Shown here piece by piece: positions 6,393 to 14,339 of a DNA stretch of 64,000 bases. The notes beneath the pieces are model-generated. The model was not told where the DNA came from. It saw only the letters and a list, made by a program, of their open reading frames with translations, and did not search any database. Both the position numbers and the translations under genes were made by a program. The stretch is from Gammaproteobacteria bacterium (GTDB lineage Bacteria; Pseudomonadota; Gammaproteobacteria; Eutrophobiales; Eutrophobiaceae), in the NCBI GenBank assembly GCA_004297165.1, contig SCUJ01000006.1, forward strand, positions 310,001-374,000, in the 5' to 3' direction. Position 1 is the stretch's first letter, and every line of letters begins with the position of its first letter.

Positions 6393-7649
6393 ATGAGCGC
6401 AAGTGAACCAGTCATGCATCCTCCCCCTGCCGCAGGCAGACCGCGCAAGCTGGTCTTCAGTCTGGAGCAGGCCCTGTCGTTGCCGTACGCCACATTGCGC
6501 TTCGCGCAGTTAGGCTGGAGGGTCATCAAGATTGAGGCGACGCCGACGGATGCGAACCTCCCGGGAGACCCGAATCGCCATATCGGCGCCCGAATCGCCG
6601 AGCCCGACCGCCGCGGTTATTTCATGGCCCCCAACGTGGGCAAGGAATCCATCGTCATGGATCTGAAGCAGCCGGCCGGTCGTGAGGCGCTGCACGAGCT
6701 GACCCGGCAACTCAGACCGGATGTATTCTGTTGCAACACCCTGCCGGCGCGATATAAGTCCCTCGGGATCGATTACCCAACACTCTCCGCGATCAGGGCG
6801 GATCTCATCTGGGCCGGGATCTCGGCCATGGGGCCCGATTATCCCGGCGTACCTGGATATGATCCTGCCATCCAGGCCATGTCCGGATTCATGGAACTGA
6901 CCGGGCAGGAAACGGGGCCGCCGACCTTGTCCGGCATCCCGGTCATCGATCTGAAGGCCGGGGATGAGGTTTATGCCGGGGTGATGCAGGCCCTGGTCGA
7001 GCGTCATGAGACCGGGCGGGGTAAATGTATCCATGTCTCCATGCTGCAGGCAGCCGCGAGTTGGCTCATCACCACCATGCCGCTGCTGGACCTGGACTGC
7101 GACCTCTCGGAGGTGAGCCGCTGCGGCAATGCGCACCGCAAGTTCATTCCCACCAACGCCTATCCGACCCGCGATGGCTACATTTACATCGCCATCGGCA
7201 ATGATCTGCAATGGCAGCGCCTGATCGCCATCCCGGGTTTCGAGTCTCTGGCGAGCGCAGCGCGCCGGACCAACGAAGGGCGGCTCGAGGAGCGGCACGA
7301 ACTTTATGCCAGAATCGGCGCGATCACGGCCGGATTCGCCACGGCCGAACTGGAACGAATCTTCAGCGCCGCCACCATCGCCCATGCCGTGATCAACACC
7401 GTGGCGCAAGTCGCGGAACTGCCGGCTATCAAGCAGCGACGGACCACGACGGTACTGCCCGATGGTCGCCGGGTCCGGATGCAGCCCATCGCCGTGGATG
7501 ACCCGGGGGGACGTGTCGAATTGCCTTTCGCGCCGCGCTATGGGGAACATACCCTGCGTGTGTTGCATGAGGCCGGGTTTACGGAGGCGGCCTGCGGGGA
7601 TCTGCTGCGACAGGGCGCGATCCTCGGCTGCGAGGATTGCGCGGTATGA
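6393..7649 (+). CDS. Family III (CaiB/BaiF-type) CoA-transferase
   Basis: A 418-residue protein of the CaiB/BaiF class, which moves CoA between an acyl-CoA donor and a carboxylate through an aspartyl-CoA thioester. The nucleotide-like N-terminal part has [14 protein letters not shown]. The catalytic Asp is in [11 protein letters not shown] at about residue 157. [14 protein letters not shown] near 210-225 and the later [22 protein letters not shown] segment are also typical. Substrates cannot be read from sequence. Its stop overlaps the DAHP synthase start (ATGA), so the two are coupled although their functions look unrelated. Confidence 0.85.
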
Positions 7650-8710
7650 CCCACGTCATCAAGGACCTGCGCATCCGCAACACCCAGCCGCTGATCACGC
7701 CGGCGGTGCTCGCGGATGAGCTGCCGGTCCCTGCGAGTCTCACCGATCAGGTATACGCCGCCCGCCAAACCATCAAAAACATCCTGACCGGCGCGGATCC
7801 GAGATTGCTCGCGATCGTGGGCCCCTGTTCCATCCACGATGTCGCCGCCGCCCTGGAATATGCGCGAGGTTTGAAGACCCTGGCAGATGAATTCCAGGAT
7901 GTCCTCTATACGGTGATACGCGTCTATTTCGAGAAACCGCGCACCGTGGTTGGCTGGAAAGGTCTCATCAATGACCCCGACCTGGACGGCAGCTTTCATA
8001 TCAACCGGGGCCTGCATCTGGCCCGCCAACTGCTCCTGGAGGTCGGGGCGATCGGTCTGCCGGCGGCGACCGAGTTTCTCGACACCACCTTTGGCCAATA
8101 TTACGCGGAACTGGTGAGCCTCGGCGCGATTGGCGCCCGCACGGTCGAGAGCCAGATCCACCGGGAACTGGTCTCCGGGCTTTCCATGCCGGTCGGGATC
8201 AAGAACCGGACCGACGGGAACATTGATGTCGCGATTGAGGCCATGCAGGCGGCCCGCCACGGTCACTGGTTCCCCTCCCTGACCCCGGAAGGTGCGCCGG
8301 CGATATTGGAGACCACCGGCAACGCGGATACCTGCCTGATCCTTCGGGGCGGCAAGGAGAGCGGACCCAATTACCAGGCCGGCGATGTGCGGCGGGCGGA
8401 ACGGAAACTCACGGACGCGGGTATCAATCCGGCGATCGTCATCGATTGCAGCCACGGCAACAGCGGCGGCGACCCGGACCGCCAGGTGGAGGCGCTCAGG
8501 GACCTTGCGGGGCAGTTGGCGTCGGGCAATAACAGCATTCGCGGGGTGATGCTGGAGAGCAACCTCAAGGCCGGCAAACAGAAGCCGGACAAGCGGGAAA
8601 ATCTGATCTATGGCCAGAGCATCACCGATGCCTGTCTGTCCTTGTCCTGCACAGCCACGGCACTCGGGGACTTCGCCACGAGTCTGCGCCAGATGGGCCG
8701 GGGACGGTGA
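7646..8710 (+). CDS. 3-deoxy-7-phosphoheptulonate synthase (DAHP synthase, class I)
   Basis: A 354-residue enzyme that condenses phosphoenolpyruvate and erythrose-4-phosphate, the first step of the shikimate pathway. The start at 7646 ([10 protein letters not shown]) overlaps the upstream stop as ATGA and is preferred over an ATG 9 nt earlier. Family motifs include VGPCSIHD (about 63-70), [24 protein letters not shown], and near the end [11 protein letters not shown]. The usual KNGTDG loop reads KNRTDG, a small variation. Length and motifs fit the AroF/AroG/AroH group, but which amino acid inhibits it cannot be told. The pairing with a CoA-transferase is unusual. Confidence 0.9.
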
Positions 8711-8816
8711 ACGAGGCCACGAACCAAGGTACAATGCCCCATCCTTAAATACACCTGACACCGGTCGTCACGATGGCCGGAAAGCAAAAGGATCCATCAG
8801 GGAGCAATCATAAGAG

Positions 8817-10130
8817 ATGTCCATAAACCTGGACCGCGCCACCCGGGAACCCATCGAATCGGCCGGCCTGGATGAACTCCGGGCCCTGCAACTGGAGCGG
8901 TTGCGCCGGTCGCTGCGGCATGCCTACGAAAATGTACCGTATTACCGGAAGAGTTTCGCTGCGGCGGGAGTCTATCCGGACGACCTGCGGGACCTTGCCG
9001 ATCTCGCCCGTTTTCCCTTCACGACCAAACAGGACCTGCGCGATCACTACCCCTTCGGCATGTTCGCCGTGCCGCGGGAAAAACTGGTGCGGATCCATGC
9101 CTCCAGCGGGACGACGGGCAAACCCATCGTGGTGGGTTACACCCGCAAGGATATCGATCTGTGGGCGGACCTGATCGCCCGCACCATGCGCGCAGGCGGG
9201 GCGCGTCCGGGCGACCTGTGCCACATCGCCTACGGTTATGGCCTCTTCACCGGTGGACTGGGTTTCCATTATGGGGCGGAGCGTCTCGGCTGCACCGTTA
9301 TTCCCATGTCCGGCGGTCAGACGGAGAAACAGATTCAGTTGATTCAGGATTTCCGGCCCAGGGTTATCCTGGTGACGCCTTCCTACGGCCTCAATCTCAT
9401 CGACGAAATGGAAAAACAGGGCATCGATCCCTCCGGATGTTCTCTGGAGATCGGCATCTTCGGCGCCGAACCCTGGACGGACGCCATGCGCGACGAACTG
9501 GAATGGCGTCTGGGCATCCAGGCTTTGGACACCTACGGGCTCTCCGAGGTCATCGGTCCCGGCGTCGCGATGGAATATCTCGATACCAAGGACGGCCTGA
9601 CGGTCTGGGAGGATCATTTCTATCCCGAGATCATCGATCCCGAGACCGGCGCGGCGCTGCCGGACGGCTCGCCGGGTGAACTGGTATTCACCTCGCTGAC
9701 CAAGGAGGCGATGCCTATCGTCCGTTACCGAACCCGCGACCTGACCCGCTTGCTGCCCGGCACGGGACGGGCGATGCGGCGGATGCAGAGGTTGACGGGC
9801 CGGTCCGACGACATGCTGATTGTCCGCGGGGTCAACGTTTTCCCCTCCCAAGTCGAGGAACAAATCCTGTATTTCAAGGAACTCGCGCCGCATTACCAAC
9901 TGGAGGTCTACCGGGAAGGGCGCCTCGATGAGGTCCGGGTCCTGGTGGAGCGCAATGCCAAGGTCCCTGAATTTTCGAGGGAAGATAAGGAAAACGTGGA
10001 GGCGCAACTGCGGCACCGGATCAAGGCCTTCATCGGCATCACGGTCGAGGTGCGCATCGGCGAACCCGGCGCCATCCCCCGTTCCCAGGGCAAGGCCCAA
10101 CGGGTCGTCGATCGGCGGCGCGCCAACTGA
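8817..10130 (+). CDS. paaK: Phenylacetate-CoA ligase family protein
   Basis: A 437-residue adenylate-forming ligase of the PaaK family, activating phenylacetate or a related aromatic acid to its CoA thioester with ATP. The phosphate-binding loop SSGTTGKP is at about residues 96-103. YGYGLFTGGLGFHYGAERLG is the PaaK-specific segment. DTYGLSEVIGPGVA precedes YRTRDLTRL and GRSDDMLIVRGVNVFPSQ, and the last Lys region is IPRSQGKAQRV. Length is normal for the family (about 430). PadJ-type ligases in anaerobic phenylacetate degraders belong to the same family, which fits the Pad-like oxidoreductase at 59.3-63.6 kb. The actual aromatic substrate is not proven. Confidence 0.88.
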   Translation: MSINLDRATREPIESAGLDELRALQLERLRRSLRHAYENVPYYRKSFAAAGVYPDDLRDLADLARFPFTTKQDLRDHYPFGMFAVPREKLVRIHASSGTTGKPIVVGYTRKDIDLWADLIARTMRAGGARPGDLCHIAYGYGLFTGGLGFHYGAERLGCTVIPMSGGQTEKQIQLIQDFRPRVILVTPSYGLNLIDEMEKQGIDPSGCSLEIGIFGAEPWTDAMRDELEWRLGIQALDTYGLSEVIGPGVAMEYLDTKDGLTVWEDHFYPEIIDPETGAALPDGSPGELVFTSLTKEAMPIVRYRTRDLTRLLPGTGRAMRRMQRLTGRSDDMLIVRGVNVFPSQVEEQILYFKELAPHYQLEVYREGRLDEVRVLVERNAKVPEFSREDKENVEAQLRHRIKAFIGITVEVRIGEPGAIPRSQGKAQRVVDRRRAN

Positions 10131-10165
10131 AATTACATTTTCATTAACAAACTTGTAACCGTAGG

Positions 10166-10576
10166 ATGCAGGATATGCAGGAAATCGTGAAGGTCGGACA
10201 GGAAAACGCACAACGCATCGTGGTCGAGAAATGGCGGACCATCGCCTTGCTGGGCGAAGACAGCCGCGTCTATTCGACCCCTGCCTTGTTGCACGATGTC
10301 GAGGTGACCTGCCACGAATCGATCAAGCGTTTTCAGGGCGAGGGCGATGACTCGGTCGGGATGAGCGCGACGGTGAACCACCTCGCGGCGACCCCGCTGG
10401 GGATGTGGGTCGATATCGTCGCGCGCGTCACCGCGGTGGCGGGCCGCAAGGTGGATTTCGAATTCGAATGCCGGGACGCCTCCGGGGTGGTGGCGAACGG
10501 CGTCCACAGCCGGTTCATGGTGAACATGGAGAAGACCGCGGCACAGATCAAGGCGAAGGCGGAGAAGTACAGATAG
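10166..10576 (+). CDS. Hotdog-fold thioesterase, FlK-like
   Basis: A 136-residue protein resembling fluoroacetyl-CoA thioesterase FlK and related hotdog proteins. Recognisable parts are VYSTPALLHDVEVTCHESIKR near residues 34-54, VGMSATVNHLAATPLGM near 65-81 and the ending VNGVHSRFMVN-type strand. In FlK-like proteins Thr, Glu and His of these segments form the active site, and all three are present (T in STPALL, E in HESI, H in NHLAA). It lies 35 bp after the PaaK-like ligase and could release CoA from a stalled product. The substrate is unknown. Confidence 0.75.
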   Translation: MQDMQEIVKVGQENAQRIVVEKWRTIALLGEDSRVYSTPALLHDVEVTCHESIKRFQGEGDDSVGMSATVNHLAATPLGMWVDIVARVTAVAGRKVDFEFECRDASGVVANGVHSRFMVNMEKTAAQIKAKAEKYR

Positions 10577-10612
10577 AAACCGTTTCAACGAAGAAAGGAA
10601 GGGGGAGGATCG

Positions 10613-12415
10613 ATGTTCAAACAATACGGCGTTACATTTCTGTTCACGACCGGTCTGCTGGCGAACATGGCAGCGGCGCAAGAGACCCAACTCTATTGGG
10701 GCGATACGCACCTGCACAGCTCCTACTCCGTGGATGCCTATTCCACGGGCAATTACAAAGGCGACCCGGATATGGCGTATCGCTTTGCCAAGGGGCTGCC
10801 GGTCCTGCATCCGGTCACCCGCGAGAAGATCCGGATCGAACAACCGCTGGATTTTCTGGTGGTGGCCGACCATGCCGAGATGTTGCAACTCCAGATCCGC
10901 CTGGAAGAGAATGACCCCGATCTGCTCGCCACCGCCACCGGGCGGCGGCTCGCGGAAGTGCTGAAGCAGGACAAGCGCGCCGTGTTCCGCGAGGTAGCCC
11001 AGATCAACACGGGCGGCGGGCAGGATCTGCTGCGCGACATCTACACCCCGGCCAACCGGCGCAATGCCTGGAAACGGCAAATGGCAGCCGCCGAGTTGCA
11101 TAACGATCCGGGCCGGTTCACGACCCTGATCGGTTGGGAATGGACCTCGGCGCCCGAATGGAGCAACCTGCATCGCGTGATCCTGACGTCGGCGGACGCG
11201 GCCACGGCGCAAAAGTTTTATCCCTTCAGTTCCTATGACAGCCAGCGTCCGGAGGATCTGTGGGCCTGGCTGGAAAAGACCAGTGCCGAGGCCGGCGTCG
11301 AATTCCTCGCCATTCCCCATAATTCCAATATGTCGAACGGCATGATGTTCGACATGGTCGACAGCGATGGCCGCCGGATCACGGCGGAATACGCGCGCCA
11401 GCGGATCCGCTGGGAGCCGGTGATGGAGGTCACGCAGACCAAGGGCACCTCGGAGACGCATCCCCAGTTGTCGCCGAGCGATGAATTCGCCGACTTCGAG
11501 ATACGCAACAAGTTGCTTACCGGCCCCGAGGCCAAGGTCAGTCCGAACTCGTACGCGCGGACTGCGCTCCTGCAAGGGCTGGAACTTGAGGCCGGGACCG
11601 GGGCTAATCCTTACAAATTCGGCCTGATCGGCAGCACCGATTCGCATAACGGTCTGGTCGCGACGGAAGAGGGGAATTTTTACGGAAAACTCGCCAATCA
11701 CATGTTGACGGAGTCGCGCAAGGGCGAGCAGAGCAACTTCCCCGCCTGGGAACTCTCCGCGTCGGGGATCGCGGGGGTGTGGGCCACGGAAAACACCCGC
11801 ACCGCCATCTTCAACGCCTTCAAGCGCAAGGAGGTCTTCGCGACGAGCGGACCGCGGATCGCCGTGCGGATGTTCGGCGGTTTCAACTTCAAGGGCGGAG
11901 ACGCCAGGGCCAAAGATATCGCGACGGTGGGTTACCGGAAGGGAGTGCCGATGGGCGGCGATCTCACGGCCGCGCCGCGGGGCAAGGCCCCCGCGTTCCT
12001 GCTGCATGCCGTCAAGGATCCGCTCGGCGCCAACCTGGATCGTATTCAGATCATCAAAGGTTGGCTGGACGCGGCGGGCGTAAAGCACGAGCAAATTTAC
12101 GAGGCGGCCTGGGCCGGGGAACGCCGGCCGGACGGGAACGGCAAGCTGCCGCCGGTCGGCAATACGGTCGATGCCGGGACCGCGACCTACAGCAATGCCA
12201 TCGGCGCTGCGCAACTCGCGACGGTCTGGACCGACCCCGATTTCGATCCGGCCCTGCGGGCGTTTTATTACACGCGGGTGCTGGAAATCCCGACCCCGCG
12301 TCATTCGACCTACGACGCCGTGGCGTTGAAGATCGACGCCAGCGAGACCCGCCAGCCGGTTGCGATCCAGGAACGCGCCTATTCCTCGCCGATCTGGTAT
12401 ACCCCGGCGCAATAA
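10613..12415 (+). CDS. Exported DUF3604 protein, PHP-like metal-dependent hydrolase fold
   Basis: A 600-residue protein with a signal peptide (residues 1-22, cut after AAA-Q) and a strong ribosome binding site (GGGGGAGG). The DUF3604 hallmark GDTHLHSSYS places H33 and H35. D86-H87 (ADHAE), H235 (IPHNSN) and D342/H344 (GSTDSHNG) follow the order of PHP-type metal ligands, suggesting a metal-dependent phosphoesterase or other hydrolase in the periplasm. The family has no settled function. It is followed after 12 bp by a PpiC-type isomerase gene and then a HupE/UreJ-like gene, all apparently one operon. The strong binding site suggests high expression. Confidence 0.85.
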   Translation: MFKQYGVTFLFTTGLLANMAAAQETQLYWGDTHLHSSYSVDAYSTGNYKGDPDMAYRFAKGLPVLHPVTREKIRIEQPLDFLVVADHAEMLQLQIRLEENDPDLLATATGRRLAEVLKQDKRAVFREVAQINTGGGQDLLRDIYTPANRRNAWKRQMAAAELHNDPGRFTTLIGWEWTSAPEWSNLHRVILTSADAATAQKFYPFSSYDSQRPEDLWAWLEKTSAEAGVEFLAIPHNSNMSNGMMFDMVDSDGRRITAEYARQRIRWEPVMEVTQTKGTSETHPQLSPSDEFADFEIRNKLLTGPEAKVSPNSYARTALLQGLELEAGTGANPYKFGLIGSTDSHNGLVATEEGNFYGKLANHMLTESRKGEQSNFPAWELSASGIAGVWATENTRTAIFNAFKRKEVFATSGPRIAVRMFGGFNFKGGDARAKDIATVGYRKGVPMGGDLTAAPRGKAPAFLLHAVKDPLGANLDRIQIIKGWLDAAGVKHEQIYEAAWAGERRPDGNGKLPPVGNTVDAGTATYSNAIGAAQLATVWTDPDFDPALRAFYYTRVLEIPTPRHSTYDAVALKIDASETRQPVAIQERAYSSPIWYTPAQ

Positions 12416-12427
12416 GGACGCGCCGCC

Positions 12428-13306
12428 GTGAAACGCCTGCTGGCCGAGCCGTTGCTGCATTTCGCCGTGCTCGGCGGCCTCGTCTACGGATCCTGGGCCG
12501 CCTTCGGCAAACCGTCGGAACCTGCCGCCGATGTCATCGTCGTCGATGAGCAGACCCTGTTGAATCACATGCAATACCGCGCCAAGGCCTTCGAACCGGA
12601 GTATTTCTCCGCGCAGTTGGCGGCCATGGATCCCGCCGGGCGTCAGCAGCTCATCGACGAGTACGTGCGCGAGGAGTCCCTCTACCGTGAGGCGGAGGCG
12701 CTCAATCTGGCCGCGGGCGATTACGTGATCAAGTTGCGCATGATCCAGAAAATGGAATATCTGCTGGAGGACCTCAATCCCGTCGCGGCCCCGGATGCCG
12801 CGGAACTGGAGCGGTATTTCGCCGCGCATCAGGAACAATATCGGGTCGCCGATTCATGGACCTTCACCCATGTGTTTTTCGATGCCGAGGCGCGCGGTGA
12901 CGAGGCGGCGCGGGAGCAGGGAAAGGCTGCACTGGTTAGGTTGAACGCGGACCAGGTAAATTTTTCGGCGGCGGTGGAACACGGCGATCGGTTTCCCTTT
13001 CTGCAGAATTATGTGGAACGCACCGGCGATTACATCGCCGACCACTTTGGCCAGGACTTCGCCAATCGCTTGCGCGACCTGCCGCTGGCGCAATGGTCCG
13101 GTCCCATCAAGTCTCAATACGGACATCATCTGGTCTACATTGCCACGCACGCCCCCGCGCAGGTTCCGGCGCTGGCCGAGGTCCGCGGGCAGGTGGAACA
13201 GGACTATCTGCGCGACGCGCACACGCAGGCCCAGGAGCGGGCGATCGCCGAATTGCGCAAGTCTTACCGGGTACAGGTGGCGGAATCGTTGAGCAGTCCG
13301 CGGTGA
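12428..13306 (+). CDS. Membrane-anchored PpiC-type peptidyl-prolyl isomerase-like protein
   Basis: A 292-residue protein that starts with GTG. An N-terminal signal anchor covers about residues 5-27 (LLAEPLLHFAVLGGLVYGSW). The middle is helical and SurA/PpiD-like (QLIDEYVREESLYREAEALN). The parvulin-like domain is at about 140-260, with FTHVFFDAEARGD, ARLNADQVNFSA-type strands and GPIKSQYGHHLVYI, the usual C-terminal parvulin signature. It should sit on the outer face of the inner membrane and assist folding of exported proteins. Its tight position after the DUF3604 gene suggests that protein, or the HupE-like partner, as its client; this is inference. Confidence 0.8.
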   Translation: MKRLLAEPLLHFAVLGGLVYGSWAAFGKPSEPAADVIVVDEQTLLNHMQYRAKAFEPEYFSAQLAAMDPAGRQQLIDEYVREESLYREAEALNLAAGDYVIKLRMIQKMEYLLEDLNPVAAPDAAELERYFAAHQEQYRVADSWTFTHVFFDAEARGDEAAREQGKAALVRLNADQVNFSAAVEHGDRFPFLQNYVERTGDYIADHFGQDFANRLRDLPLAQWSGPIKSQYGHHLVYIATHAPAQVPALAEVRGQVEQDYLRDAHTQAQERAIAELRKSYRVQVAESLSSPR

Positions 13307-13313
13307 TGGCGCA

Positions 13314-14339
13314 GTGACCTACCGGTCCCGGCAATTTGTCGGCGCGCTGCTCTTGCTCGTGGCGGCCTTATTGGGCATCCGGAACCCTCTGGCGCATGAG
13401 GCCAGACCTTTGCACGTCCGCATCGAAACGCTCGCCGCCGGCGCCTATCAGGTCACGATCAGGGCGCCTGAATCCATCGCCATCGACAACCTGCCCTGGG
13501 TGCAATGGCCGGATACCTGCGCCAGCCCCGCTGGAGACGCGGCCAACTCTGCGTTGCAACATTACCTGTTGCGTTGTTCAGGGGATCTTGCGGGCGCCGA
13601 GATCGCCATCCGTTACCCGCTGTTCAATCCGGTAATCACGACGCTGATCACCTGGGCGGAGCGGCCGAATGCCGACCTGCACGTGGTGCTCCGGCCGACC
13701 GAATCGACCTGGCGCGTGCCGAAGACGCCGGGATCGCAACATGTGCCGACGGCTTACCTGCGCCTCGGCATGGAGCATATCCTCACCGGCGCGGATCACC
13801 TGCTGTTCATCGGGGCGTTGCTCGCGATTGCCGGGGCCGGCCGGCGCATCGTGCTGGCCGTGACCGGATTCACCCTGGCGCATTCGCTGACCTTGACCCT
13901 GGCGGCGTTGGAATTTGTCGCGATCCCGATCCCGCCGACGGAGGTGGCCATCGCCTTATCCATAGCCTTCCTCGCCCGCGAGCTTGTTCTGCCGAATGAC
14001 CGATCGCTCACCCGCCGACGGCCTTTTCTGGTGGCGACCTGCTTCGGGCTCTTGCACGGACTCGGATTCGCCGCCGCCTTGCGCGAGGTCGGTCTGCCGC
14101 AGCGCGACATCCTCATCGCCTTGGTATCGTTCAACCTGGGTGTGGAGGCGGGTCAGATCCTGTTCATCGCCATGGCGCTGATCGCGCTCTGGCTGGTTGA
14201 AAAAACAATCGTCAATTTCCAGCGGGGAAAACTCATCGCGCGTTCGCCGATGACGATCCCCGCACTGGGATACGGTATCGGGGCTACCGCCGCATTCTGG
14301 TGTATGCAACGAATCCTCGTCTGGCAGGTCGGGTTTTAA
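13314..14339 (+). CDS. HupE/UreJ-family membrane protein with N-terminal periplasmic domain
   Basis: A 341-residue protein with a GTG start, 7 bp after the PpiC-like gene. The signal peptide (about 1-28, ending LAH-E) is followed by a beta-rich region of about 120 residues. The membrane domain has about seven segments from residue 145 on. The HupE-type metal motif GMEHILTGADHLLF (H, D, H) is present, as is CFGLLHGLGFAAAL with a second His. Classical HupE/UreJ proteins import Ni or Co, but members with this long N-terminal domain are uncharacterised. No hydrogenase or urease gene is nearby. Supplying metal to the upstream PHP-like protein is one possible role. Confidence 0.8.
   Translation: MTYRSRQFVGALLLLVAALLGIRNPLAHEARPLHVRIETLAAGAYQVTIRAPESIAIDNLPWVQWPDTCASPAGDAANSALQHYLLRCSGDLAGAEIAIRYPLFNPVITTLITWAERPNADLHVVLRPTESTWRVPKTPGSQHVPTAYLRLGMEHILTGADHLLFIGALLAIAGAGRRIVLAVTGFTLAHSLTLTLAALEFVAIPIPPTEVAIALSIAFLARELVLPNDRSLTRRRPFLVATCFGLLHGLGFAAALREVGLPQRDILIALVSFNLGVEAGQILFIAMALIALWLVEKTIVNFQRGKLIARSPMTIPALGYGIGATAAFWCMQRILVWQVGF

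Follow-up and report, generated by a model that had tools for sequence, protein, structure and literature searches.

The subject of this report is a run of three genes on the plus strand of a 64,000-nucleotide stretch (hereafter, the window; positions 310,001 to 374,000 of contig SCUJ01000006.1, assembly GCA_004297165.1) from a gammaproteobacterium of the Eutrophobiaceae. The genes encode a DUF3604 protein of 600 amino acids (10613..12415; PF12228, E-value 3.8e-229, 762.5 bits against a gathering cut-off of 20.4), a membrane-anchored PpiC/parvulin foldase of 292 amino acids (12428..13306, GTG start; PF13145, E-value 1.2e-13, 52.4 versus 27 bits) and a HupE/UreJ_2 permease of 341 amino acids (13314..14339, GTG start; PF13795, E-value 4.7e-42, 143.8 versus 24.5 bits; PF04955, E-value 9e-7). 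The gaps between them are 12 and 7 base pairs (bp), respectively, and the open reading frames were recovered exactly where an earlier note, made from the letters of this DNA, had placed them. A minus-strand reading frame of 901 amino acids (10133-12838) overlaps the DUF3604 and PpiC genes and misleads length-based gene calling; it looks like a GC-rich shadow of the trio.

Predicted properties of the three proteins

Signal peptides and membrane topology were assigned by visual inspection and from models. The DUF3604 protein carries a Sec-type signal peptide and the complete PHP motifs: motif I, H33-x-H35 (10709..10717); motif II, D86-H87 (10868..10873); the probable bridging metal ligand E176 (11138..11140); motif III, H236 (11318..11320); and motif IV, D343-x-H345 (11639..11647). 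All of these residues are invariant in 57/57 homologues. The AlphaFold2 (AF2) model (predicted local distance difference test, pLDDT, 92.5) comprises a PHP fold followed by a C-terminal beta-sandwich (residues about 415–600). With the fold and the four metal motifs (HxH, DH, H and DxH) present, the protein is predicted to be an exported metallohydrolase of the PHP superfamily, in agreement with the earlier description of an exported PHP-like protein with a full set of metal ligands. PHP enzymes use several metals. Its substrate is probably an extracellular ester, carbamate, amide or phosphoester.

The closest solved folds to the model are those of BVU_3505 (PDB code: 3e38; Z 16.8, root-mean-square deviation 3.4 over 232 aligned residues) and TM0559 (PDB code: 2anu; Z 16.1). 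Both share the PHP fold, but sequence identity is low, and they are uncharacterised or predicted phosphoesterases with no known foldase or permease partner. The CehA/McbA carbamate hydrolases are exported and dependent on several histidines (PMC8292978), as is predicted for the DUF3604 protein. Membership of that family (NF038032) was rejected, as the window protein gave no match and a divergent relative scored 28.1 bits against a cut-off of 80. No DUF3604 relative was found in the PDB by sequence or profile, viral contigs gave no relatives, and the literature search returned no function for DUF3604, which was mentioned only in a single unrelated paper, and no mention of PF12228.

The PpiC protein has a single N-terminal hydrophobic anchor (12455..12505, located by sequence inspection; 'REPLLHF...' consensus), and profile comparison shows kinship with the PEB4, HP_0175, SurA and PrsA chains. 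The second parvulin histidine is present in 37/37 relatives, while the first is histidine in 15, as in the window protein, and glutamine in 22.

In the permease a signal peptide precedes a periplasmic beta-sandwich, which is followed by a helical core of the HupE type (AF2 model, pLDDT 86). Its predicted first mature residue is His28 (13395..13397; ...NPLA^HEARP, cleavage site by inspection), and this position is His in 27/31 trio permeases and Asp in 4/31. The beta-sandwich (13398..13718) is similar in fold to zinc-binding ZrgA (8f1b, Z 8.4), to PA4063 (Z 8.3) and to the copper-bound Ang-1 domain of a HupE/UreJ-2 protein (9gce, Z 6.5). Invariant in 31/31 relatives are H155, D161 and H162 of the transmembrane HX5DH metal motif (13776..13799), together with H190, H248, N274, E278 and Q281. 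Foldseek returned only weak, mixed membrane-protein matches for the permease, and no HupE_UreJ_2 relative was found in the PDB by sequence or profile. Membership of the TerC family (PF03741) was rejected: Pfam matches HupE families only, so that the permease is TerC-like in its working at most. The parvulin domain above cut-off with its one anchor, and the metal-permease motifs with their beta-sandwich, bear out the earlier assignments of an anchored folding isomerase and a HupE-like metal permease with a periplasmic domain.

The permease recalls the anglerases, copper- and nickel-binding proteins published in 2025 (PMC12537917). Dissociation constants of about 74 nM for copper and 220 nM for nickel were measured there, and capture followed by import was proposed. 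Ang-1 and Ang-2 share with the trio permease the PF13795 core, the signal peptide and a periplasmic beta-sandwich that is predicted to start with His in most relatives of the trio permease. The domain of the trio permease is, however, shorter, its His1 is kept in the 27 of 31 given above, and the neighbours reported for anglerases include neither DUF3604 nor a foldase.

Co-occurrence of the trio and its surroundings

Eighty loci were fetched with the window's DUF3604 protein as query. The whole trio lies within 5 kb in 31/80 homologous loci, and in 16/33 of those with at least 5 kb available on both sides; it is found in Pseudomonadota, Bacteroidota, Verrucomicrobiota, Gemmatimonadota, Acidobacteriota, Myxococcota and other phyla. 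Gene orders include DUF3604-PpiC-HupE, the same with DUF3604 repeated (up to four copies), PpiC-HupE-DUF3604, and DUF3604 with HupE on the opposite strand. A single PpiC-HupE pair often accompanies two to four tandem DUF3604 genes; Marinigracilibium (L036:3805-11743) has four tandem DUF3604 genes and one pair.

Among 397 evenly drawn genomes of the same phylum, DUF3604 occurs in 33, the PpiC subfamily in 34 and both in 32, with 1 genome carrying DUF3604 alone, 2 PpiC alone and 362 neither (Fisher p 1.2e-43); kinship makes such a count look more independent than it is, but 14 families are involved. The corresponding figures for 184 genomes of the same class are 9 with both, 2 and 0 with one alone and 173 with neither (p 1e-13). 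DUF3604 was counted by its Pfam model, independently of our own alignments. Because the PpiC profile derives from trio members, the 'trio-type' PpiC is in part defined by the trio; the fraction of DUF3604 genomes with PpiC (32/33) is less affected.

Viewed from the foldase, DUF3604 is no more than 5 kb away at 34/39 PpiC loci; of the other five, three belong to genomes that carry DUF3604 at another site, and in every fetched PpiC locus without an adjacent DUF3604 gene the PpiC is paired with HupE. In three genomes (G388, G419 and G543) the pair and DUF3604 are far apart or on separate contigs. Because these genomes keep the genes apart yet have all of them, linkage alone does not explain the co-occurrence. 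The trio arrangement is far beyond chance. Counted across genomes, as the earlier note had asked, the association is near-perfect, crosses phyla and holds even where the genes are unlinked; rarity was not seen. The patchy distribution of the genes and their many copies on rhizobial plasmids would suit a mobile or selfish operon that travels without joint function, but this reading does not account for the co-occurrence in the three genomes just named, nor for gene order and strand that vary to the point of a convergent second copy in the window's own genome, and we hold such neutral co-inheritance to be highly improbable.

Clustering of the neighbours at the 80 loci, in search of a clue to the substrate, showed that only sulfatase-like genes (assigned to the family from their sequence) recur beyond the trio, close to DUF3604 (median distance 418 bp) at 11/80 loci (L023, L036, L042, L045, L050, L051, L061, L072, L082, L084 and L085); the other neighbours vary between genomes. 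DUF3604 is frequent on rhizobial plasmids (78 plasmid records in all, mostly rhizobial), and on a plasmid of Rhizobium sp. N324 (L105:12186-14427) a DUF3604-PpiC unit is followed by three consecutive HupE/UreJ genes. A literature search for this gene combination found nothing relevant, and the trio is a widespread gene set that is apparently undescribed as far as the literature was searched. The novelty claimed for it in the earlier note needs correction for the permease, whose type, with its metal-binding periplasmic domain, is already described as the anglerases (PMC12537917).

In the window, genes for a coenzyme A (CoA)-transferase, a DAHP synthase, a PaaK-type phenylacetate-CoA ligase and an FlK-type thioesterase (6393-10576) immediately precede the trio on its strand, separated by short gaps, and may be co-transcribed with it in this genome only; neighbour clustering did not find them kept beside the trio at the homologous loci. 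Urease alpha was found nowhere in the window's genome, and a whole-genome search for NiFe-hydrogenase gave a single partial match, below threshold, on another contig. The earlier statement that neither enzyme is encoded nearby is borne out, and an ordinary hydrogenase or urease accessory role is rejected for this genome. The same genome carries a second trio (L006), a third DUF3604 gene (L005) and a DUF3604 fragment (L004). The second trio (L006:7714-15538) is convergent, with DUF3604 on the plus and HupE and PpiC on the minus strand, and directly adjoins lptD-surA; the fragment, short and C-terminal, lies about 8 kb from the intact, pairless third gene, which stands beside kdp genes.

Other partners of the PpiC-HupE pair

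Two of the 397 same-phylum genomes carry PpiC without DUF3604. In one of them, G525 (L108:6346-12807), the order is TonB receptor, arginase-family gene, PpiC, HupE and two further arginase-family genes. By inspection, each arginase-family protein starts with a signal or lipoprotein peptide, and the third has lost metal ligands, which recalls the catalytic/pseudoenzyme pairs of nickel ureohydrolases. On a plasmid of Novosphingobium sp. RL4 (L129:5842-17379), an exported arginase 66% identical to that of G525 is separated by 4 kb from a PpiC-HupE pair and stands immediately before ureD, the genes for the urease beta and alpha subunits, and ureE (assigned by Pfam), an arrangement that suggests that urea is produced outside the cytoplasm and feeds the urease. 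PpiC and HupE proteins linked to arginases form one clade each (support 99/99 and 100/96) with members from two classes, that of the window and Alphaproteobacteria. Among 118 genomes of G525's family and 197 of its order, the exported arginase turned up only in G525 itself, so this client is rare there. In genomes G096 and G023, PpiC and HupE adjoin divergent PHP proteins (736-778 amino acids) that keep all PHP motifs.

Because the pair also accompanies arginase-family enzymes and divergent PHP proteins, the PpiC-HupE pair is the constant part of the system and the exported metallohydrolase the variable one. The suggestion that the three genes form one system is partly supported by their association, the metal ligands, the export signal, the anchor and the permease motifs, and is modified in that the pair is not specific to DUF3604, being found with divergent PHP proteins and twice with arginases.

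Arginase-family enzymes that use nickel are known, and the exported arginases resemble the nickel ureohydrolases metformin hydrolase MetCaCb and guanidine hydrolase GdmH in belonging to the arginase family and in pairing a catalytic gene with a degenerate one, with genes for metal chaperones close by (PMC11271267). There, MetCaCb and GdmH are not described as exported and rely on other metal chaperones, whereas the arginases here have signal peptides and the PpiC-HupE pair. The constant linkage of enzyme and permease, and the adjoining of the arginase-linked version to urease, could also mean that the HupE-type protein transports what the hydrolase releases, such as urea from an exported ureohydrolase, and not a metal. 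The products of DUF3604 and arginase-family enzymes would differ, yet HX5DH and the other histidines are invariant; moreover, the N-terminal domain of the permease resembles metal-binding domains and the close families are nickel or metal permeases. We consider uptake of a product very unlikely.

A predicted folding and metallation module

We lean towards the view that the PpiC-HupE pair serves the maturation of exported metallohydrolases. In the window the hydrolase, a DUF3604 protein with a PHP fold, would cross the inner membrane unfolded and metal-free via Sec and would be folded at the membrane by the anchored parvulin. Through its periplasmic metal-binding domain the HupE-type permease would supply or hold the metal, the right ion being inserted in the periplasm. 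The genes, their conserved association and co-occurrence, the invariant ligands and a further type of client are observed; we infer how the enzyme is exported, that the proteins touch, that metal passes from the permease to the enzyme, and in which direction the permease transports. Nickel is our first guess for the metal because of the kinship with HupE and the urease and ureohydrolase context of the sister modules, and manganese is the second. Many arginases use manganese.

Several observations weigh against a maturation module. The pair stands alone in one genome (G466, L107), in another (G325, L118:7118-9027) an intact pair lies beside a DUF3604 remnant with a stop codon, and in a third (G295) DUF3604 occurs without the pair, as do many DUF3604 copies that lie apart from any pair. 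The arginase association amounts to two loci, one with the 4 kb gap and opposite strands. Since 22 of 37 relatives have glutamine in place of the first parvulin histidine, the foldase may be a weak isomerase, and His1 of the permease, besides being Asp in 4/31, is absent from the arginase-linked permeases. Finally, HupE is known as an importer, and metallation in the periplasm could need export or mere capture.

An alternative is nutrient or metal scavenging, in which the exported hydrolase would break down a metal-bearing or metal-chelating compound outside the cell, the permease would import the freed metal for the cell's use and the foldase would merely fold the enzyme or a receptor. The capture and import proposed for this permease type in the anglerase study (PMC12537917), the TonB receptors in the cluster at two loci and the urease operon beside one module, which would need nickel, are all consistent with it. 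Scavenging leaves unexplained, however, the tie between the hydrolase and a foldase subfamily of its own and the reason why the pair is common to hydrolases of unrelated folds, and the window's genome has neither urease nor a hydrogenase match above cut-off. We judge it unlikely.

A maturation module has an experimentally supported counterpart in Bacillus subtilis, where manganese enzymes exported through Sec receive their metal from the TerC proteins MeeF and MeeY, which co-purify with SecDF and with the parvulin PrsA (PMC10550928). As predicted for the trio, a metal-handling multi-pass membrane protein works there with a foldase of the PpiC class on Sec-exported metalloenzymes. The trio differs in that its permease belongs to PF13795 and not PF03741, the pair is encoded beside its client, the foldase is dedicated and not general, and the hosts are Gram-negative bacteria and members of other phyla; its function is a prediction. 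The trio is best seen as a variant of a known idea, the dedicated metallation of exported enzymes. More tentatively, and with some doubt, the pair may be a portable, client-specific metallation and folding module, perhaps for nickel, that serves Sec-exported metallohydrolases from several unrelated families, with PHP and ureohydrolase folds. It would then be the equivalent of TerC/PrsA in Gram-negative and other bacteria, and would offer a way of assembling nickel enzymes outside the cytoplasm.

How enzymes that are exported unfolded obtain the right metal is a largely open question, to which TerC is a recent answer for manganese. If the proposal is true, the PpiC-HupE pair would provide a second, genetically tractable answer, following exported metallohydrolases of unrelated folds across phyla. 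It would also offer the first testable biochemistry for DUF3604, namely which metal it holds and how it is loaded, and a client for the anglerase permeases.

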